Assembly: GCA_023701225.1 (NCBI GenBank)
Contig: JAMPXM010000006.1
Coordinates: 1 to 32,444 of the forward strand
DNA from: Pseudobdellovibrionaceae bacterium
GTDB lineage: Bacteria; Bdellovibrionota; Bdellovibrionia; Bdellovibrionales; JAMPXM01
DNA: 32,444 nt
Reading direction: 5' to 3'
Both the position numbers and the translations under genes were made by a program. The notes beneath the pieces were generated by a model. It searched no databases, was not told the origin of the DNA, and was given only the letters and a program-made list of their open reading frames with translations. Shown piece after piece: positions 21,633 to 32,444 of this stretch (the stretch's first letter is position 1; the number at the start of each line of letters is the position of its first letter).

Positions 21633-22448
21633 TTAAGTTAGCAGGTTTCTGACCTTTTTGTAAGCGAGTGCGACCATCATATTGAGGACCTCGGTATCCG
21701 AGCTCAGATTTAGCGCCGTTTTGACTTCCTGAATCATGGCCTGGGAACTCGCATTGAGCTGTTCTACGGGAGAGCCGCCTGCGGCCGAGGTCACGGTCAC
21801 GGTCGTCGTCGTTGCCGTCGAAGTCGTCGTCGCTGTCGCGGCGACAGACGAATTGACAGACGAATTGACAGACGAACTGACGGACGGGCCGGCAGACGGG
21901 CCTGTCATCGGGCCCGATGACAGGCCGACGGAGGAAACCGAGGGCGACACGTTCGAATGACCGGGCGAATGACCTATCGGTGCGGCCGCCGTTGCGGGAG
22001 ACGCCAGAATCGGCTTAGCCATCGGAGCTTGGAAGCTCGAAGGCGCAGGCGTGGCTTCACGTGGCCTCGGCCCAAGTTCAAGCGCAGTAGGCAAGGGGAC
22101 CGCGGGACGAAACTGTGGTCGCGATTGTGGCGAGAGTTGGTGGGGCCTTGGCACTTGGGATTCGAGAATCGGAGTCGCAAGCGTCTCGCCGGGCTCGCTA
22201 CGATCGAACTGTTTTAAGCCTTCAGCGAGGTTTTTTAAGTCATTGACGAAATTTTGGGATGTCACAGGAGCGTCAGCCTCCGGGGATGCATGACCGTAGC
22301 GTTGCGCGCGCAAATAAAGCCCGACCAGCGCATCTGGTGATTGCGCGAGCCTTTTGATCGATTCCGGCTGGCTTTGCAGCCAGTTGAACGCGACCGCGAG
22401 GATCTCTCGCGTGTAAGCTTGAGGAGGCAATGTCGGGCCATTCGCCAT
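21633..22448 (-). CDS. Hypothetical protein with a long low-complexity linker
   Basis: A 271-residue protein of unknown function. Start ATG 22448 (MANGPTLPPQ) is chosen over an upstream TTG (22487), though neither has a good ribosome binding site. Two helical ends frame a disordered middle: residues about 8-60 (YTREILAVAFNWLQSQP and RLAQSPDALVGLYLRAQ) and the last 45 or so (SSDTEVLNMMVALAYKKVRNLL). The latter resembles a ribbon-helix-helix or dimerisation segment but I cannot assign it. The centre is Pro/Ala/Ser/Thr-rich, with SVNSS-type repeats encoded by 12-base DNA repeats. No signal peptide is seen. It lies directly upstream of ileS, 36 bases away, and may share its transcript. Confidence 0.65.
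   Translation of the reverse strand: MANGPTLPPQAYTREILAVAFNWLQSQPESIKRLAQSPDALVGLYLRAQRYGHASPEADAPVTSQNFVNDLKNLAEGLKQFDRSEPGETLATPILESQVPRPHQLSPQSRPQFRPAVPLPTALELGPRPREATPAPSSFQAPMAKPILASPATAAAPIGHSPGHSNVSPSVSSVGLSSGPMTGPSAGPSVSSSVNSSVNSSVAATATTTSTATTTTVTVTSAAGGSPVEQLNASSQAMIQEVKTALNLSSDTEVLNMMVALAYKKVRNLLT
21843..21902. repeat. Five 12-base tandem repeats inside the linker-rich gene
   Basis: Plus-strand units GACAGACGAATT (twice), GACAGACGAACT, GACGGACGGGCC and GGCAGACGGGCC run in phase, encoding the SVNSS/SAGPS part of the minus-strand protein. Confidence 0.75.
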
Positions 22449-22572
22449 AGAGGGAGCGAAATTACAGGTGCTGAAAGGGCCGAGCAAACGAAAAGCTCGA
22501 TGTGATGATCAATTCAGCACACCAAAAGAAAAACTTCGCGCGCCGAAAAAATCTATGATTGACATAAGTTAC

Positions 22573-23518: not shown

Positions 23519-25009
23519 TTAGCGTGGCTCTGCGAAGTCTTTGGCGACGATTCCGTATTTTTCGATTTTACGGAGCAACGTCTTCTTCGGAATATTCGCG
23601 TGCAAAGCCGTTTGGTTGATGCGTCCTTTAAACGTCTTCAGAGCCTTAATGATGAACTCACGCTCAAATGCTTCTTTATGTTTATTGAAATCGAGGCTGT
23701 CACCATTGATCGAGACCATTTCGCCGGACGCCTCGGCGCTCTCGTCCGCGTCGTCTGCGCCGTCCGTATCGGAGAATTCGTCACCGTTATCACCCATCAC
23801 AAGATCGGCCGGGACCGACATGGATGCGAGGTTCACTCCCGCCTGCGCCAAGACGGACTCGGGCAATGAGCCCAACGTGAGCAGATTCGAGTTCTCCAAG
23901 ATGAACGCGTGTTCGACCACGTTTTCAAGTTCGCGAATATTGCCGGGCCAGGTGTATTTTTTGAGGCAAGCCATCGTTTCGGGCGTGATGCCGATCATGC
24001 GTTTGTTGTGCGCCTTATTGAACTTCTTGATGAACGTATTCACCAGGTGCTCGATATCGGTTTTACGTTCCGCGAGCGGCGGCAAAAAAATTGGGATGAC
24101 GTTGAGGCGGTAGAACAAGTCTTCGCGGAAACGACCGTCTTTGATCATCTCCTCTAGCGGGCGATTGGTGGCCGCGATCACACGCACGTTACTTTGGATT
24201 TCGCGGTTGCTGCCAACCGGAGTGAAGAGCTTCTCTTGAAGCACACGCAGGAGTTTGACCTGCATCATCACCGGCATATCGCCGAGTTCGTCGAGAAAGA
24301 GCGTGCCTCCTTCAGCGAATTGAAACTTGCCGATCTTGCGTTCATGGGCGCCCGTGAACGAGCCTTTCTCGTGGCCGAAGAGCTCGGACTCGAACAGGTT
24401 TTCGGGGATCGCCGAGCAGTTGATCGCGACGAATTTTTCATCTTTGCGCGCGGAATTGAAGTGGATCGCGCGTGCGACGAGTTCTTTGCCAGTGCCGGAA
24501 GCGCCACGAATCAAAACCGGTGTATCCACTTTGGCCAGACGGTGGATGATGTTGAACACCTTCTGCATCTCGGCCGAACCGCCGATGATCTTGCGTCCGG
24601 CATCCATGAGAACGGGTGCGCTGGCGGCGACTGACGAGATCATGGTTTGCGCGCTCATCGCGCGTTCGACCAGGCGCACGAGTTCCTCGCCTTTGACGGG
24701 CTTGGAGAGATAGTTGTAAGCGCCTTCTTTTACCGCGCGGACAGCATCATCGATCGTCGCGAATGCGGTCATGATGATGACGGTCGCCGAAGGGTCATGT
24801 TCTTTGATGAGTTTCAGAGTTTCAAGACCGTTCAAGCGCGGCATGTCGACGTCAAGGAGCACGACATCGTAGTGCTTCGCTTTGACCTTTTCCATCGCAT
24901 TGATGCCGTCGAACGCTTCGTCGATTTCAAACGCGCCGGCTTGAGCGAGCGTTTCGCGAACGGAGAACCGAAGTCCCTGATCGTCGTCGACAACCAAAAT
25001 GCGCAACAT
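23519..25009 (-). CDS. NtrC-family sigma-54-dependent response regulator
   Basis: A 496-residue regulator: receiver (about 1-120), AAA+ (about 140-370), Fis-type helix-turn-helix at the C-terminus. The receiver is canonical, with VVDDD (8-10), phospho-acceptor D53 in VVLLDVDMP, T81 and K103 in YLSKP. The AAA+ domain has GASGTGKE (Walker A), GSFTGA where GAFTGA is usual (a tolerated Ser variant in known proteins), LFLDELGD (Walker B) and FREDLFYRLNV. A Glu/Asp-rich linker precedes the DNA-binding end. The start has GAGGAG 5 bases upstream. It follows the CHASE2 histidine kinase by 49 bases and is the likely phosphorelay partner. Target genes need RpoN and are not known. Confidence 0.93.
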   Translation of the reverse strand: MLRILVVDDDQGLRFSVRETLAQAGAFEIDEAFDGINAMEKVKAKHYDVVLLDVDMPRLNGLETLKLIKEHDPSATVIIMTAFATIDDAVRAVKEGAYNYLSKPVKGEELVRLVERAMSAQTMISSVAASAPVLMDAGRKIIGGSAEMQKVFNIIHRLAKVDTPVLIRGASGTGKELVARAIHFNSARKDEKFVAINCSAIPENLFESELFGHEKGSFTGAHERKIGKFQFAEGGTLFLDELGDMPVMMQVKLLRVLQEKLFTPVGSNREIQSNVRVIAATNRPLEEMIKDGRFREDLFYRLNVIPIFLPPLAERKTDIEHLVNTFIKKFNKAHNKRMIGITPETMACLKKYTWPGNIRELENVVEHAFILENSNLLTLGSLPESVLAQAGVNLASMSVPADLVMGDNGDEFSDTDGADDADESAEASGEMVSINGDSLDFNKHKEAFEREFIIKALKTFKGRINQTALHANIPKKTLLRKIEKYGIVAKDFAEPR

Positions 25010-25058: not shown

Positions 25059-26933
25059 TCAAGGTTCTTGAAGGTCGGTCGGAAGCTCCACCGTGAACGT
25101 CGATCCCGCGCCTGGGGCCGAGTCCACGGAGATGGTTCCTTTATGAAGTTCCACGAAGTATTTTGCAAGGTACAAACCCAAACCTGAACCCTTTATATTC
25201 GAATACTTAGCGTCCTTCGACCGGTAAAATTTGGAAAAGACCTGCCCGATTTCGTCCTCGAGGATGCCAGGCCCTTGATCGGCCACTTGTATGACCACCC
25301 GGCCATGGGCTTCTTCGGTCGAGACCAGAATGCGAGTGCCTTCCGGGCTGTATTTGATAGCGTTCTCCACGAGGTTCGCGATCACTTGGCGGATCAGGTC
25401 CACGTCCATTTTGATGGAGAACATCGGCTCCAGTTCGATCATCAGTGAGATGTTCTTACTCTTCGCCAGGTACTCGAATTTACCGGCGATCTCCTGGATG
25501 AGCTGATTCGGGTCCTTGCTCTGCAAGTGCAGGCGCAATTCTTTGCTCTCAATGCGGCCCAAATTTAGGATCGAAGTCACGAAATCCAGTAGTTCGTGCG
25601 AAGACTTCTCCAGCGTCTGAAGAGCTTCTCTTTGCCGTTCGCTCAGTGGGGTTGGGTCTTTGAGAACGATGTCGGTCATGCCTTGGATTCGCGCGATCGG
25701 TGTTTTTAAGTCGTGCGACATCATGCTGAGAAAGTTCGTTTTCAGCTCTTCGACCTGCGTGAGTAAACGGTTTTTCTGTAGGTATTCCCAGCTTTTGCGG
25801 TTTTCCATGATAAGGCGATAGGGGATGAAAAAGTAATAGCAGATGAATGCCGCCAAGAGCGGATGCGCCATCACGACCCAGATCGTGCCCCACCAGAAAA
25901 GCAGATAGGACAGCAAACTGAAGGAGAGCACCGAGCCGCCCAAGAGGAGGAGCCCGCGGGTCGGCTTCAGAGCCAGGACCACGTAGACGGTCAGGATGGA
26001 GATCACGGTGGTCAGGAAAATATTCACCCAGTCGGGGAGCTTGTAATAGCCGTTATTGAGAATCAGCGTATCGAGCATATTCGCGTGCATCTCGATCGCA
26101 GTCATCGCGTTGATTTCACGAGAATAGGGTGTGCGGATATAGTCTTTGACGGTCGTGCGCAGGTCACGTCCGACGATCACGATCTTGTTGCGAAGATCGT
26201 CTTTCTGCCAGCGCCCTTCCAGACCATCGATAAAGCTGTGGACGGGGTAGCTGCCGGCCGGCCGAAAATCGATGAAGACCTGGCGCGCATCGAGGAAATC
26301 GAAAATTCCATGGATTCGGTTTTCGTCGCGGATCTTCGGATTGAAGAGCGCGGCGAGTTTGACGTGCAAAAATGTCTGGCCTTGATAAGACGTGAACATC
26401 CGACGCGTGACCACGTCGCGGGCGAAGAGGTTTCGATCGCTGGTGGAAGGAGCTGCGTCGGCTTTGAGGCTTTCAAACGGAGGAGAGAGCCGGAAGGCTT
26501 CCTCGGCTCCTTTCATCGGCACGTCGTCCACTGCGATGACGAAGCCGGGGACTTGCGCTGCCGTTTCGGCCCACGCTTTTAATTCCTCATAGGAACCGAC
26601 CAACTCGCTCGGATGGATGAGGTACATCACCGCCTTGGGTTTCTGCTCCAGCATGCGCTCCAGCAGCCGCGTATGGTCTTTTGCGTCCGGCGCGCGATGC
26701 AATCGATCAATGGTCTTGGGATCGATCGCGACCGTGGTGATATGGCCTGAAACGGTCGGAGCCGGGCGCAGGCGCATGCGTCCGTCGTAGAGGAGGGCTT
26801 CGATGTAATCGAATTGAAATCGCGTGACGAGAAAGGCGATGACGAAAGCGAAGCCCAAGCGAATGAGCGGCTGATAGGAGATCCGCGCGAACCGTACCAG
26901 CTTTTGATTCAAATTTGGCTCACGCGAAGTCAA
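25059..26933 (-). CDS. CHASE2-domain sensor histidine kinase
   Basis: A 624-residue inner-membrane kinase. It has one N-terminal membrane helix (about 22-40), an extracytoplasmic CHASE2 domain (about 45-310), three further helices (about 310-375), HisKA with the phospho-accepting H407 in MMSHDLKTPIARI, then HATPase_c (N box NLVENAIKYSP, DQGPG, GSGLGLYLAKYF). CHASE2 ligands are generally unknown. Start: TTG 26933-26931 has GGAG (26941-26944) 7 bases upstream; a longer frame to 27056 would run through the terminator of the preceding operon and is rejected. The gene lies directly upstream of the NtrC-like regulator, so this is a two-component pair signalling to sigma-54 promoters. Confidence 0.93.
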   Translation of the reverse strand: MTSREPNLNQKLVRFARISYQPLIRLGFAFVIAFLVTRFQFDYIEALLYDGRMRLRPAPTVSGHITTVAIDPKTIDRLHRAPDAKDHTRLLERMLEQKPKAVMYLIHPSELVGSYEELKAWAETAAQVPGFVIAVDDVPMKGAEEAFRLSPPFESLKADAAPSTSDRNLFARDVVTRRMFTSYQGQTFLHVKLAALFNPKIRDENRIHGIFDFLDARQVFIDFRPAGSYPVHSFIDGLEGRWQKDDLRNKIVIVGRDLRTTVKDYIRTPYSREINAMTAIEMHANMLDTLILNNGYYKLPDWVNIFLTTVISILTVYVVLALKPTRGLLLLGGSVLSFSLLSYLLFWWGTIWVVMAHPLLAAFICYYFFIPYRLIMENRKSWEYLQKNRLLTQVEELKTNFLSMMSHDLKTPIARIQGMTDIVLKDPTPLSERQREALQTLEKSSHELLDFVTSILNLGRIESKELRLHLQSKDPNQLIQEIAGKFEYLAKSKNISLMIELEPMFSIKMDVDLIRQVIANLVENAIKYSPEGTRILVSTEEAHGRVVIQVADQGPGILEDEIGQVFSKFYRSKDAKYSNIKGSGLGLYLAKYFVELHKGTISVDSAPGAGSTFTVELPTDLQEP

Positions 26934-26940
26934 AGTTCCG

Positions 26941-26944
26941 CTCC
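26941..26944 (-). promoter_or_regulatory. Ribosome binding site deciding the TTG start of the kinase
   Basis: GGAG on the minus strand lies 7 bases before the TTG at 26933-26931. Together with the terminator just upstream it favours this start over longer frames. Confidence 0.5.
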
Positions 26945-26989
26945 ATACTCGGTGTTTGTTCCGGTGTTGTACCCGGGAAACATCCCTAG

Positions 26990-27020
26990 AAAACAAAAGG
27001 GCCCAGCACTTGCCAGGCCC
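26990..27020 (-). terminator. Intrinsic terminator of the radical SAM/peptide operon
   Basis: On the minus strand a 22-base palindromic element (27020 down to 26999) forms a GGGCC/GGCCC stem extended by two G-T pairs and a GCA/TGC stem, followed by TTTTGTTTT (26998-26990). It lies 75 bases past the peptide stop and separates that operon from the kinase gene. Confidence 0.75.
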
Positions 27021-27095
27021 CCACTTCGAATCTCTCGGCATGCGCTTCCCGTTCATCCGCCCAACCCCCGTCGGGCGCGGAAAGCTCGCGTCGGC

Positions 27096-27245
27096 TCAGT
27101 CGCTATGCTGTGGCAAGCAAGGCATGCCGTACGCTTTCGGCGCGGCCTTGTCGGCTGACGAATTGGCCTTCACACCTGCTTTGGAATTGTCCTGCGCGGT
27201 GGCCGCCTTCGCGGGATTGGCTGTGACCTTTTTGATGTATTTCAC
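27096..27245 (-). CDS. Candidate RiPP precursor peptide
   Basis: A 49-residue peptide starting at GTG 27245-27243, with AAGGAG (27252-27257) 6 bases upstream, 2 bases after the stop of the radical SAM gene. It begins MKYIKKVTAN, continues as a Lys/Ala/Asn-rich leader-like stretch, and ends YGMPCLPQHSD with its only Cys at position 43. Upstream ATGs at 27269 and 27284 give the same frame overlapping the enzyme gene; the GTG has the best ribosome binding site. A terminator follows. Small size, low-complexity N-terminus and the compact aromatic/Pro/Cys tail beside a SPASM enzyme fit a RiPP precursor (leader then core). No homologue is recognised, so it could also be an unrelated small protein. 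Confidence 0.55.
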   Translation of the reverse strand: MKYIKKVTANPAKAATAQDNSKAGVKANSSADKAAPKAYGMPCLPQHSD

Positions 27246-27246
27246 G

Positions 27247-28602
27247 TCAGTCTCCTTGTCCGTGTTCATAACGCGATTGCTCATAGTATTCAATCCCCCT
27301 AGCAATGATGTGTCGTGTGCGATTGCAAAATTCTGTGTCCTTGCGATGTTTATCACCCGTTCTCAGCCGATTCACGAACATACAGCCGCCACCGCAGACA
27401 TGGCGAGCCCAGCAGCTGCCGCAGTTGTTGAGTTCGATGAGTGAGGGAGCGAATTTTTCAAGAGCGGCTTTGTCGAGCGTGAGATCTTCGCCAACCTCTT
27501 CTTCTTTGACATTGGTCCACCAGTTACAAGCGTAGAACTTACCTGAGGTATCCACTTGCAAAAGCGTTTTGCCGGCGCCGCAGTGATTGTGGATGCGGCT
27601 TTTCCCGTCGAGGATTCGGAAGAGATGATCGAACTGCGAAATGCGGCGGAGCTCGGCTTCGCCGCCAATTTCAAATGCGCGCGCGGCGACCGTGGCAAGC
27701 CCTTGAGCATAGCGTGGACTGTACACAGCGTCATCGGGACCCGCCGCGTACCCGAGATAAATCATGTCCCACGGATACTGGCGCAGGAAGTTCCAAGAAC
27801 CGACGACATCCGTATTGTGCGCGCCGAAAACAGCGTTGCAGGCGAGCGCTCCCAAACGGTCTTGGACGACCAAGAGGCGTTCGACGCCCTGGAGTGCGAG
27901 TGCGGAGGAGCCTTTGCCGCTCGCAAGCTTGCGATCCAAATCGTTCGTCTCGGGCGGACCGTCGATACTGACGGTGACGAACGCACGCAGATCGGCGAGC
28001 ATTTCGGCGATTTCAGGCGTGACCAGGGTTGCGTTGGTGGTGATCTCAAAGCGCAATTTCAAGTCGCGTGGTGTAGCCCATTCGCGCGCGTCGTCGGCGA
28101 TCGCTTGAATGGTTTTTGGATAAATCAGCGGTTCGCCGCCAATGAAGTTGATCGTGAACTTGCCTCCGTCAGGCACGCGGTCGAGCAACATTCTCATTTG
28201 CGCTTTGAATTTTTCAAGATCGATATGGGCCGTTTTGGAGCCGCGGGCGCCATACGTACCGTCGCCGCCGGCAGCACAGTAGGAGCAACGCATATTACAA
28301 ATTTGTGCGACGTTGACGCTCAATGTGCGGATACCGTTTGGAGCTCGGCCATCGGTGACCTCGGGGTCGCGTTCGGCGTTCCACTCAAGAACTTCGGCTT
28401 TCACGTCATTGCGGACTTGGCTGGGGTCTTCGAGCGCTGTCCATACTTGTTCGTCGAGGCGCGCGACCTGCAAATTGACCGCATGGAAGCCGACGACGCG
28501 GCCGTCCTGAGTCTTGATCGCCAAAATGTTGTCAAAGCGCGCCAGGGACAAAACGAAACCTCGAGTGTTGAACCCCACCAGAAGAAGCAATTCCGAGACC
28601 AC
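27247..28602 (-). CDS. Radical SAM/SPASM peptide-maturase-like enzyme
   Basis: An enzyme of about 451 residues. The radical SAM site is ICNMRCSYC (CxxxCxxC for the 4Fe-4S cluster), followed by FIGGEPLIYP. The C-terminus is a SPASM domain: NHCGAGKTLLQVDTSGKFYACNWW, then CGSCWARHVCGGGC and a final Cys in TEFCNRT, binding auxiliary clusters. The N-terminal 70 or so residues (NILAIKTQDGRVVGFHAVN) may be a PqqD-like/peptide-recognition element. SPASM enzymes with this C-terminal Cys pattern often make thioether or other crosslinks in ribosomal peptides. The GTG at 28602 lacks a good ribosome binding site; TTG 28551 has GAGG 7 bases upstream and may be the real start. The next gene encodes a small peptide starting 2 bases after its stop. 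Confidence 0.85.
   Translation of the reverse strand: MVSELLLLVGFNTRGFVLSLARFDNILAIKTQDGRVVGFHAVNLQVARLDEQVWTALEDPSQVRNDVKAEVLEWNAERDPEVTDGRAPNGIRTLSVNVAQICNMRCSYCAAGGDGTYGARGSKTAHIDLEKFKAQMRMLLDRVPDGGKFTINFIGGEPLIYPKTIQAIADDAREWATPRDLKLRFEITTNATLVTPEIAEMLADLRAFVTVSIDGPPETNDLDRKLASGKGSSALALQGVERLLVVQDRLGALACNAVFGAHNTDVVGSWNFLRQYPWDMIYLGYAAGPDDAVYSPRYAQGLATVAARAFEIGGEAELRRISQFDHLFRILDGKSRIHNHCGAGKTLLQVDTSGKFYACNWWTNVKEEEVGEDLTLDKAALEKFAPSLIELNNCGSCWARHVCGGGCMFVNRLRTGDKHRKDTEFCNRTRHIIARGIEYYEQSRYEHGQGD
27252..27257 (-). promoter_or_regulatory. Ribosome binding site of the peptide gene
   Basis: AAGGAG on the minus strand is 6 bases before GTG 27245-27243 and lies inside the last codons of the radical SAM gene, indicating translational coupling. 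Confidence 0.65.
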
Positions 28603-28741: not shown

Positions 28742-30403
28742 TTATCGCGTGGCCGACGAGAAGAGACTCATGCACTGGTGGGCCTGAGATTTGAGAGAGG
28801 GCGGCCGAGGTATTTCTCGATCCAGCTCACCGAACATGTCAACGACCTGAGACCGAAAGGGAGTACTTGCGATGGCAAGGCGGCTATGAAGGTCCACCAG
28901 TATCTGCGTGAAGTAGCCGGCCTCTGAATACGTATGAAGGTAGTCCTCGGTGCCGACAGGCTTGGCTCCAATTGAAATCCAATGGAGGAGCCCTTCCTGA
29001 TAGTTCAGGTTTTTTAACAGGCTTGCGTCCAGAATGACTTCGCTATCGAGGAAAGGGATAATGTAATTGTGTTTAGGTGAATCCACGACCAGCTGTTTGA
29101 GAAGCTTTTGGCGTCGCTTCGGGTCTAACCTGCGAAGTAAAGGAGACAGTGACACGGGAGATCGTATGCCGAAAGCCTTCGCATTGTCGCTGACCCACGC
29201 GATGGCCTCTTCGTAACGCTCAGATGCGATCAAGGCTTCGACATGAGAGACGAACTTTAAAGAAAGTTGATGTGCTTGGTTTTGGATTTTTTCGTAAGAG
29301 GCGGCGTCAACGGGCTGCCCGTTGTGACTGAGTAGTGTCATGCGGCGAACGTCGGAACGATCGGCGATGACGATTTCCTTGCCCATTCCAATACCGGCAT
29401 CCATAAAAATCGTGGCGCGAAACATGGATGCGCCGAAATAGCTCATCAGTCCGAGGAAAGGTTTGGAAATAAGAAGGCGTGCGGACGGGGTCAAACGAGA
29501 TTTATAGGATTCCGGCATAATGGTCAGAGCGTAGTTGGCTTGAACGACTCGGCGTTTGAGGTCTCCGTTGGGCACGTCGAATACCAATGCATCTGGGGAC
29601 GGTTCGACTTTTAGAACCGCCGCGTTTTCCTTACGGGAGGCATCCAACCCCATGTTCTTGGCTTTCACCAAACCCCAATTCAATGAGTTGTTGAAAACCG
29701 AAGTCGTGAAAATACCACGCTCTATTTGATGAGAACCGGGCGGTCCGTAAGCCATTCCATCGCGAAATCCAGTGCTTTGAATCGGTAAGACGTCGATCGA
29801 CAAAAAGCCAGAATACAATTCCAAATTTGGCGCGTATTTGTGGATGGGCGAGATCGAAAGTTCACGGATTTGATCGACGTCGAAGCTTCGTGTTTTGAGA
29901 TATTCACGGATGATGTCACGGTCCGAGGAGGTGAGGCCCGATCGATAGAGCGCGGATTCCTTTTCCGCTAAAATGTCATAGAGATGACCTTGGCCATTTA
30001 AGTTTTGATAAATTTGGTGGAGATTGAAGAAGTGAAACTCGGAGAGAAACGTCTCGATATTTTCAACGGATAGTTTGGACTTGAAGAGTTCATCCACAGC
30101 AATTTTGAGAGACGCGGCCTCCGCAGGGGAGAGCGTTTGCAAAATCGGCGCGCGATTTAAACTCCAATTTAAGATTTCATAGCGCAATTGATCCGGCAAT
30201 TCTTGGCCGTTGACCAGGCGCTCGAGAATCGAGAGAAAGTGAATGCCCTCAGGGCGCAATTGCGACTGGTGGGACTCCGGTCTGTGCGTGATCGTCGGCT
30301 CATGAGTTCGCTTGGCGCCAAGAGTGTTATGCGAAAAGATCGTGAGCGTGAGGGCGAATCCAATGGTGAGTACGTTTTTCGCTCGCTTTAATATCGCGGT
30401 CAT
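28742..30403 (-). CDS. Large exported protein of unknown function
   Basis: A 553-residue protein starting at ATG 30403 with AGGAG 6 bases upstream; the frame runs on to 30727 but the signal peptide (about residues 1-29, NVLTIGFALTLTIFSHNTLG) begins here. The N-terminal 150 residues are helical and charged. The middle has a beta-rich segment (GPPGSHQIERGIFTTSV and GASMFRATIFMDAGIG). The C-terminal third is helical again. No Cys cluster, lipobox or transmembrane region follows the signal peptide. I recognise no family or active-site motif. It is divergent from the radical SAM gene at 30792 and just upstream of the SPASM operon on the same strand but separated by a terminator. Confidence 0.7.
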   Translation of the reverse strand: MTAILKRAKNVLTIGFALTLTIFSHNTLGAKRTHEPTITHRPESHQSQLRPEGIHFLSILERLVNGQELPDQLRYEILNWSLNRAPILQTLSPAEAASLKIAVDELFKSKLSVENIETFLSEFHFFNLHQIYQNLNGQGHLYDILAEKESALYRSGLTSSDRDIIREYLKTRSFDVDQIRELSISPIHKYAPNLELYSGFLSIDVLPIQSTGFRDGMAYGPPGSHQIERGIFTTSVFNNSLNWGLVKAKNMGLDASRKENAAVLKVEPSPDALVFDVPNGDLKRRVVQANYALTIMPESYKSRLTPSARLLISKPFLGLMSYFGASMFRATIFMDAGIGMGKEIVIADRSDVRRMTLLSHNGQPVDAASYEKIQNQAHQLSLKFVSHVEALIASERYEEAIAWVSDNAKAFGIRSPVSLSPLLRRLDPKRRQKLLKQLVVDSPKHNYIIPFLDSEVILDASLLKNLNYQEGLLHWISIGAKPVGTEDYLHTYSEAGYFTQILVDLHSRLAIASTPFRSQVVDMFGELDREIPRPPSLKSQAHQCMSLFSSATR

Positions 30404-30605
30404 ATCTATCTCCTGGCCGGTATGACTCTGCTTTTCTGGAGCATGGTTCGTGCCTCGACTTTCTGAGCAGGGCAAAGTGACCGGATATCTATAAATGATT
30501 GAAAACACTGCTGAAGTTAATGATCCGGGAGGATGTGGCAAATTCTGCTGATATGCGAATTTTTGAGCAAAAAGGGTGAGGGCGGAATTTCGACTGACGG
30601 CTGTC

Positions 30606-30634
30606 AATGAGTTAAGCACAAATGAGTTAAGCAC
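30606..30634. repeat. Tandem direct repeat AATGAGTTAAGCAC
   Basis: Two exact 14-base copies (30606-30619 and 30621-30634) with 15-base spacing, in the divergent regulatory region. Candidate operator. Confidence 0.8.
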
Positions 30635-30671
30635 GTTGAGTTTGTGACCTGTAGGGATTGTCGCCTGTGCT

Positions 30672-30692
30672 TCTCCACCGTCCGGGTGGAGA
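30672..30692. repeat. Inverted repeat in the divergent region
   Basis: TCTCCACC and GGTGGAGA flank a GTCCG loop, 8 perfect base pairs. No U-tract on either strand. Confidence 0.6.
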
Positions 30693-30791
30693 GGATGTAA
30701 ATCCAGAAATTCCGGTGCGAAGGCCAATTCTATTTTGGGTGTTTAGATAATCAGTTACTGTTGACCTCAGATTCGATTGCGGAGGTCATGG

Positions 30792-32444
30792 ATGACGAAC
30801 CGGGTTTGGCTGATCAATCTTTTTGGGACTCCTTGCGCACCGAGCGCGTTTCATCCGGATAACTCATTGGCGGCCCTGGCCGGTTCGCTGAAGCGAGGTG
30901 GATTTTCTCCGCTCATCATTGATTTTCAAAACGTCAGCTTTTGCTCGTCTTTGGTCCCCGAACACCTGGGGCGTCGCTCGTGGGACTTGATGAGTCGCGT
31001 GTCCAAGCAAGCATTGACAGCCGCGGATCACGAAGAGATCGCGGATTTGAACGATGAGTTGGGCCGACATCAGAGGGCGATCATCGATCGTGAAGCGGAC
31101 GTGTTGATACGAAAGGCCGAGAGTGAGAAGCCACTCTTGATCGGCCTCAAGCTCTACTCCGGCGAAGGTTCGCTGCATTCTCGTCAGTTAGCGCGCAGGC
31201 TGCGGGAGCGATTGAAGATCCCAATTGTCGGAGGAGGTCCTCTGATTCGCGTCGTCGGTGCTAAGTATCTTGAGTTCTACGATGAGTTCGACTTTCTCTT
31301 GGACGGGGAGGCGGATCGGAGCCTTGTCGCGTTCGCCCGTGCTTTGCGCGACGGCGTCGACGTCACGGGCGTTGCGGGATTGGTTTATCGTCATCCACGC
31401 ACGGGTGCCGCGATGAAAAATCCGATTGATGCGATCACGAATATGTCGGAAGTCGCCGATCCCTGTTACGACCCAGACGTGTATCCCGTGCTCTATGAGA
31501 AAGATGAAAAGATCCACGTCTTTCAGTTGGATGAGAGTCGTGGCTGCCCGAATCAATGCCATTTTTGCGTGCATCCGATCATCAACGGACAGCGCTTCCG
31601 GACCACGATGGTGGATCGCGTGATTCATCAGATCAAGGAGTTGCAGGAGCGCTTTGGCGCGGTCGCGTTCCGCTTCACAGGTTCGAACACACCCAAGAAG
31701 TTTCTGCGGACATTCGCCGAGGAAATCCTCAGAGAAGGTCTCGAAATCCGATACTCTTGTTTTGCGTCCGTGAACACGACCACCGAGGATTCGATCGAAC
31801 TGTTTCGTCGCAGCGGCTTGGCCGGCGTCTTTATTGGCGCGGAAACGCTTGATCAAGGCGTGCTCGATGATGTGTTCAATAAACGTGGGCAGCCGCCCGA
31901 GAAAACGCGATCGTTGGTGAAAGCGTTTTTGGATGCGGGCATTTATACGACGACGAGTTGGATCTATCCGATGCCGAACTACACGCATCGCATGCGAAAC
32001 GAAGTTCGTGACTTCATCTTGGAAGCTTATGGGGGGCGAGATCAAGAAGCGGGTAGCGTCATCCTTCTGCCGGCGGCGCTGGTGCCAAACACCGAATGGT
32101 TTTTGAACTTTAAAAAATATGGCTTTGATGTTCCGGATCTCGATGCCTACTACAGGGGATACATCGAATTGGTCATGAAGTTTTATGTGCCCCGTCAGGT
32201 GATATCCAAGTGGACCTTCACGATGCAAGGAAAGACGTTCGACGAACTGGCCGCCGAGACAGACGATCTCGCGCGTGAAATCGCGGTCGCGGATATTTGC
32301 CTGGGAGTATCAGATGATTGGATGCTGGCGGGTCAACTCTCGGGTCGGCCGATGAAGCAGTTTCGAGACGAAATGGTTCGGGCCTTCATCCTCGGAGATT
32401 ACGCTGAAGTTCGACGAACGGTCGCGACCGTCAACGAAAACTCC
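30792..32444 (+). CDS. Radical SAM protein of the B12-binding type, 3' truncated
   Basis: The frame is open from ATG 30792 to the window end (551 residues so far), with GGAGG 6 bases before the start. The N-terminus has a Rossmann-like region (MTNRVWLINLFGTP; IVGGGPLIRVVGAKY; FLLDGEADRSLVAFA) as in cobalamin-binding radical SAM proteins, though the classic DxHxxG B12 motif is not evident. The radical SAM cluster motif is CPNQCHFC at residues 252-259 (CxxxCxxC), followed by FRFTGSNTPKKF and GVFIGAETLDQGVL typical of the TIM-barrel core. Such enzymes methylate or rearrange diverse substrates; this substrate is unknown. It is divergent from the exported protein gene. Confidence 0.8.
   Translation, partial: MTNRVWLINLFGTPCAPSAFHPDNSLAALAGSLKRGGFSPLIIDFQNVSFCSSLVPEHLGRRSWDLMSRVSKQALTAADHEEIADLNDELGRHQRAIIDREADVLIRKAESEKPLLIGLKLYSGEGSLHSRQLARRLRERLKIPIVGGGPLIRVVGAKYLEFYDEFDFLLDGEADRSLVAFARALRDGVDVTGVAGLVYRHPRTGAAMKNPIDAITNMSEVADPCYDPDVYPVLYEKDEKIHVFQLDESRGCPNQCHFCVHPIINGQRFRTTMVDRVIHQIKELQERFGAVAFRFTGSNTPKKFLRTFAEEILREGLEIRYSCFASVNTTTEDSIELFRRSGLAGVFIGAETLDQGVLDDVFNKRGQPPEKTRSLVKAFLDAGIYTTTSWIYPMPNYTHRMRNEVRDFILEAYGGRDQEAGSVILLPAALVPNTEWFLNFKKYGFDVPDLDAYYRGYIELVMKFYVPRQVISKWTFTMQGKTFDELAAETDDLAREIAVADICLGVSDDWMLAGQLSGRPMKQFRDEMVRAFILGDYAEVRRTVATVNENS

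Follow-up and report, generated by a model that had tools for sequence, protein, structure and literature searches.

The window analysed here (the whole stretch of 32,444 nucleotides) carries on its minus strand four consecutive genes, which code for a radical SAM/SPASM enzyme, a 49-residue peptide with a single cysteine, a CHASE2 sensor histidine kinase and an NtrC-type response regulator (Table 1). This gene unit is best read as an autoregulated sigma-54 signalling operon that includes a RiPP-type peptide of a new, single-Cys kind. The original prediction had described a compact two-gene operon consisting of a SPASM maturase and a small peptide. The coordinates and reading frames which it gave for the two genes are correct, on the minus strand; the pair itself proved to be the front half of a longer unit that also possesses the CHASE2 kinase, the sigma-54 regulator and a promoter element.

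Table 1. Genes and sequence elements of the operon in the window
Feature	Position	Strand	Remarks
Sigma-54 (-24/-12) promoter-like element TGGTCTCGGAATTGCT	28586..28601	-	5′ of enzyme
Predicted radical SAM/SPASM peptide maturase	27247..28551	-	434 aa, probable TTG start
Precursor-like peptide, MKYIKKV...YGMPCLPQHSD	27096..27245	-	49 aa, GTG start, conserved head, single-Cys C-x-P tail
Terminator-like hairpin with T-run, possible partial terminator	26997..27022	-	Between peptide and kinase
CHASE2 sensor histidine kinase (HisKA + HATPase_c)	25059..27056	-	True start probably within ORF
NtrC-type response regulator (receiver, sigma-54 activator AAA with GSFTGA, Fis HTH)	23519..25009	-	Domains from Pfam

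The enzyme and peptide genes

The enzyme ORF, whose stop codon ends at 27247, has CNMRCSYC as its radical SAM motif and CGSCWARHVCGGGC as its SPASM motif, with a match of 60.9 bits to the Pfam model Radical_SAM (PF04055, cut-off 29.5). Ten cysteines are invariant across 41 homologues, these being the CxxxCxxC set and the complete seven-Cys SPASM set (C324, C342, C377, C380, C386, C390, and C409). Judged by these residues the radical SAM/SPASM enzyme is complete, which agrees with the SPASM maturase with auxiliary-cluster motifs that had been predicted. The predicted ORF and its stop also stand, although translation probably begins at the TTG at 28551 and not at the GTG at 28602 that had been proposed. 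The TTG is favoured by an in-frame stop 5′ of this point in the 79%-identical sister, by the homologues, which start there with an ‘xLxRFxxI’ motif, and by the position of GTG 28602 at the sigma-54 promoter element (28601-28586). The N-terminal domain of the enzyme is conserved, and for 41 homologues Pfam gave no match to a PqqD-type RRE. An AlphaFold model of the enzyme, made from five sequences, was too poor for an RRE to be read from it (mean pLDDT 56.9, N-terminus below 50).

Two further ORFs occupy the window on this side. Directly 5′ of the enzyme there is a 661-aa ORF (28742-30727, minus strand) which has no Pfam match and whose place is not kept in relatives. A second radical SAM protein (30765-32444, plus strand, PF04055 match at 31536-32018) runs off the end of the contig; by eye it resembles the B12-binding type, and it is transcribed divergently from the enzyme operon.

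The GTG of the peptide gene (27245) lies 1 base past the enzyme stop and its own stop codon ends at 27096. A GTG is kept before the K[HFYL]IK head in 11/11 members of the window's family that were read, most of which also have AGGAG or a similar sequence just 5′ of it. Its constant position in these eleven supports the GTG start of a 49-aa peptide, as in the original prediction.

Seventy-six loci were fetched, the assessable set being 76 with the window, and a short ORF is found 3′ of the enzyme in all of these (76/76, window included). No enzyme homologue without a conserved peptide nearby was therefore seen in this set, and a separately encoded, precursor-like peptide is kept with the enzyme throughout, as is characteristic of a RiPP system. 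The maturase precedes the precursor, an order that had been noted as less common and is the fixed one throughout this enzyme-peptide family. The peptides have a common architecture, with a basic head (consensus KHIKKVKP) conserved across loci in the manner of a leader motif, a variable middle and a single-Cys tail. One Cys is present in the peptides of 74/76 loci, 3-12 residues before the C-terminus, and in 69/76 the residue at Cys+2 is Pro (C-x-P). As the other seven loci have CPE (6) or CEI (1), the proline is not universal. The CPE endings (L053, L059, L062, L070, L077, and L119) belong to f4, in which many relatives are without the enzyme, and these peptides may represent a divergent branch with a different chemistry. 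The expectation that the tail would be kept beside the enzyme holds across the order for a single Cys with Pro two residues on, whereas the exact ending YGMPCLPQHSD is specific to the genus.

A regular expression for the peptide matches 73/76 loci, the remaining three having been recognised by eye, against 1.2 matches expected in dinucleotide shuffles and two on the reverse strand. The pattern is thus beyond chance, and by this measure the peptide is a real gene. The pN/pS ratio, pooled over 17 related peptide pairs that are not independent of one another, is 0.30, which indicates purifying selection on the peptide, and a value of 0.26 was obtained for the window peptide and that of its sister. 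With a peptide profile, the operon gave the best match in 9/9 genomes tested, as a single copy and with nothing else convincing. One locus (L087) has two tandem peptide genes, MNTKTQHIKKVKPVKAIATSTTGLSCIPIG and MKTTTTKHVKKVKPSKKSSSSTTGLACIPSGLPNSSSN, between enzyme and kinase. There is also an HD100-like enzyme-peptide pair, the peptide of which has MTQQTHIKKIKPLKPKPSSTTKLAGPGGGTGEGCIPVR. No Sec-type hydrophobic signal was found in the peptide, five peptide sequences searched against the NCBIfam precursor models matched no family at E<=0.5-1, and comparison of the peptide profile with the PDB found no leader chain.

Operon organization and distribution

The kinase ORF matches the Pfam domains CHASE2 (1.9e-26), HisKA (1.1e-15), and HATPase_c (3.9e-28), and the regulator matches Response_reg, Sigma54_activat, and HTH_8, all six being over cut-off. 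Synteny extends across the order: in all assessable loci the peptide gene is followed by that of the kinase, and in 69/71 assessable operons the kinase gene by that of the regulator; the two exceptions are L094, where the regulator is located elsewhere, and L112, where it is upstream and divergent. A PPQAYT-containing protein (21633-22487, minus strand) lies 3′ of the regulator in the window and has a homologue in the HD100-like locus L069 (10120-10734); going by its position, it seems to be the neighbouring gene that 59 loci have kept. On the other side no conserved upstream partner gene was found, the genes 5′ of the enzyme varying between lineages. No exporter, immunity or protease gene was found adjoining the enzyme-peptide pair, so the earlier statement that neither exporter nor protease is adjacent was correct, and the conserved neighbourhood yielded no cofactor-pathway or cofactor-user enzymes.

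The pattern TGG-N8-[TC]TGC[AT], the -24/-12 form of a sigma-54 promoter, was sought 5′ of the enzyme, near its start, and is present in 59/74 loci, where 0.7 would be expected. Other spacer lengths gave 0-5 loci each, the signal being found only at the exact spacing. A related pattern occurs 5′ of the kinase in 13/33 operons lacking the radical SAM enzyme, and RpoN is encoded in 9/9 genomes tested, including the window's own. As the regulator of the operon is itself of the sigma-54 activator class, the simplest interpretation of these elements is that the operon is autoregulated through its own sigma-54 activator. A terminator had also been predicted after the peptide. A terminator-like hairpin is indeed present (27022-26997); in the small number of relatives inspected there was no clear sign of its being kept.

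Enzyme homologues were identified in 81/141 genomes of the Bdellovibrionales, the kinase in 114/141 (E<=1e-90) and the regulator in 117/141 (E<=1e-150), with about 30 genomes keeping the kinase and regulator without the enzyme. In the region 5′ of the kinase, the peptide pattern was found in 0-1 of the 32 kinase-regulator operons lacking the enzyme; the single match (L142) was discounted, being absent from the sister locus L143 and at the level of chance. The kinase tree requires at least seven changes between presence and absence of the enzyme, four of them forced by well-supported branches, and every change is shared by the peptide. Given that enzyme and peptide change together on this tree and the kinase-regulator pair persists alone, the tree indicates that the kinase and regulator are the older pair, with the enzyme and peptide as a module attached to this two-component system. 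Repeated loss of the module is suggested by the same pattern, with transfer as the alternative.

Some enzyme-less operons have other short ORFs 5′ of the kinase. In L134 (G086) a Cys-less ORF of 42 aa, MKKMNQENQAPSFAQSWNGNGKPPFNLDPNGNGGGGTKPPFT, sits in the same place and is a possible replacement peptide, and short basic Cys-less candidates were observed in L138, L139, and L163 (e.g., MEFKSKIKKEAVKKPKGMISTSPSEYF).

Apart from a single, more distant homologue within the phylum, the enzyme family is practically restricted to the class. This homologue, from another class (L171, genome G147), has the radical SAM gene at 1658-2905 on the minus strand followed by an ORF, MKHVKKVKKLKKVANQSPKKDTKKRPEGEPKACSWMSDG, which starts with MKHVKKV and has a Cys close to its end and no C-x-P. 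With regard to spread of the enzyme on plasmids, only general SPASM relatives of about 30% identity were found.

Comparison with known systems

By profile, the nearest solved structure to the enzyme is CteB (PDB 5wgg/5why, E 6.6e-51). The SCIFF/CteB system resembles the operon in having a SPASM enzyme, a small separate precursor and Cys donors. However, enzymes of the family described here score 104.3 and 136.2 bits with the SCIFF maturase model TIGR03974, for which the cut-off is 425, the SCIFF precursor has six Cys in 45 whereas the peptide has one (74/76), and the genes here are linked to a CHASE2 kinase and a sigma-54 regulator. Membership of the SCIFF group was rejected on the maturase score, the single Cys and the lack of any match to TIGR03973 at the operon. 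The best NCBIfam model for the enzyme is PapB (NF047865), which matches its core domain with 168.6-188.9 bits; both of these end scores are below the cut-off of 340, and assignment as a PapB ranthipeptide maturase was likewise rejected. CX3D repeats, the motif of PapA, are absent from the peptide with its one Cys and C-x-P tail. By sequence comparison the enzyme is closest to the thioether-forming maturases CteB and PapB.

Homology is also detectable, across the radical SAM and SPASM domains, to the maturases of Nif11-like peptides and of the QhpD type (TIGR04064, TIGR03906). The enzyme is below the cut-offs of both models, however, and there is neither a nif11 leader nor an adjoining quinohemoprotein dehydrogenase. 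No NCBIfam family claims the enzyme or the peptide, and as far as could be tested the single-Cys peptide family and its partner enzyme appear to be undescribed, in line with the original proposal of an undescribed maturase with its own small precursor. No description of an enzyme-peptide-kinase-regulator operon was found in a literature search of open-licence papers.

The CHASE2 kinase and NtrC-type regulator have the same domains as known pairs of this kind, but here they share one operon with a peptide and a maturase. The operon has the gene content of a peptide quorum-sensing two-component system, together with a promoter element, and resembles such a system in layout only; neither an adjacent exporter for the peptide nor a secretion signal on it was found here. 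A part in quorum sensing has been reported for SCIFF-derived ranthipeptides, the products of CteB-type enzymes (Chen et al. 2020, as cited in PMC8326336), and these may serve as a precedent for the peptide in function only.

Possible function and alternatives

We hold with roughly even confidence that the four genes constitute one autoregulated sigma-54 signalling operon, the front half of which makes a modified peptide that feeds the adjacent kinase-regulator circuit. By analogy with other such pairs, the peptide would be the substrate of the enzyme. The radical SAM/SPASM enzyme would recognise the peptide by its basic, KHIKKVKP-like head and install a radical modification in the C-terminal tail. 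With a single obligatory Cys in this tail, a Cys-based crosslink would be the simplest chemistry, and the Cys is the likely site, most simply of a thioether from its sulphur to a residue nearby, the type of link found in ranthipeptides and sactipeptides. Once matured, and probably cleaved off, the tail would then act on or with the adjacent CHASE2 sensor kinase, which would control the sigma-54 activator-type response regulator. By analogy the regulator would act at the sigma-54 promoter of the operon itself, and presumably at others, giving positive feedback. The thioether, the cleavage, the export and the product as kinase input are steps that we infer. Since many relatives retain the kinase and regulator but have no such peptide, it cannot be the only input of this pair.

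It also counts against this reading that CHASE2 is an extracytoplasmic domain and that no exporter, peptidase or Sec-type hydrophobic signal accompanies the peptide. A more specific and more tentative proposal, which we would put somewhat below even confidence, is that the cells themselves make the mature C-x-P peptide as an extracellular signal read by CHASE2, i.e., an order-wide autoinducer made by a radical SAM enzyme, with sigma-54 positive feedback and a place in the near-core genome of Bdellovibrio-like bacteria. It is held lower because the search for an exporter or a signal sequence was negative.

The same lack of an export signal or transporter would suit a modified peptide that acts inside the cell, either as a small modulator of the kinase or regulator or as a redox- or iron-sensitive reporter read by the pathway. 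In the latter case maturation would work only with Fe-S enzymes and SAM available, and the enzyme does require Fe-S clusters; the gene order, in addition, keeps the peptide with the kinase. However, no cytosolic target is known, and the conserved Cys near the C-terminus lies in a tail resembling a cleavable core, for which reasons we regard an intracellular role as unlikely, albeit the strongest of the alternatives.

Less probable still is another extracellular job, with the peptide being an antimicrobial, a prey-directed factor or a metal binder that is merely expressed under the kinase and regulator, much as some bacteriocin clusters have a two-component system of their own. Antimicrobials are numerous among the peptides made by SPASM enzymes (PMC8326336) and the operon, if its promoter is real, is under its own activator. 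Such a role fits poorly with the absence of exporter, immunity and protease genes, with the single copy of the peptide gene, and with a tail that is conserved and not diversifying. Retention is also stable and vertical-looking in most of two families and is not of patchy spread.

The small conserved motif in the C-terminal core could also point to a redox cofactor or carrier derived from the peptide, comparable to PQQ or mycofactocin, such cofactors being known products of SPASM enzymes. We consider this very improbable, as the conserved neighbourhood holds no further cofactor-pathway or user enzymes and the enzyme is closer to the thioether maturases. The weakest alternative, that the short ORF regulates the kinase gene as a leader, by ribosome arrest or attenuation, and is not an enzyme substrate, could draw on the conserved residues near the stop codon and the hairpin 3′ of the peptide in the window, but it can be set aside with some assurance given the strongly conserved N-terminal head, the two copies in L087 and the absence of the ORF wherever the enzyme is missing and the kinase still present.

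Returning to the peptide as a product of the operon that feeds its own kinase and regulator, the finding adds a family of single-Cys peptides whose partner enzyme is clear. Most sequenced Bdellovibrio-type genomes have it, whereas the family libraries tested do not contain it. One of the operon-bearing genomes is, we presume, that of B. bacteriovorus HD100, which would make the operon open to study in a genetically tractable strain. The fixed place of the peptide in a sensor-kinase operon, together with the sigma-54 promoter element, makes it a candidate internal or cell-to-cell signal; to our knowledge, no peptide signal has been described in Bdellovibrio-type bacteria. CHASE2 is a widespread sensor domain for which we know of no ligand. 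The operon also offers a route toward finding one, and if the peptide is indeed read by CHASE2, it would be the first ligand for a receptor of this type.
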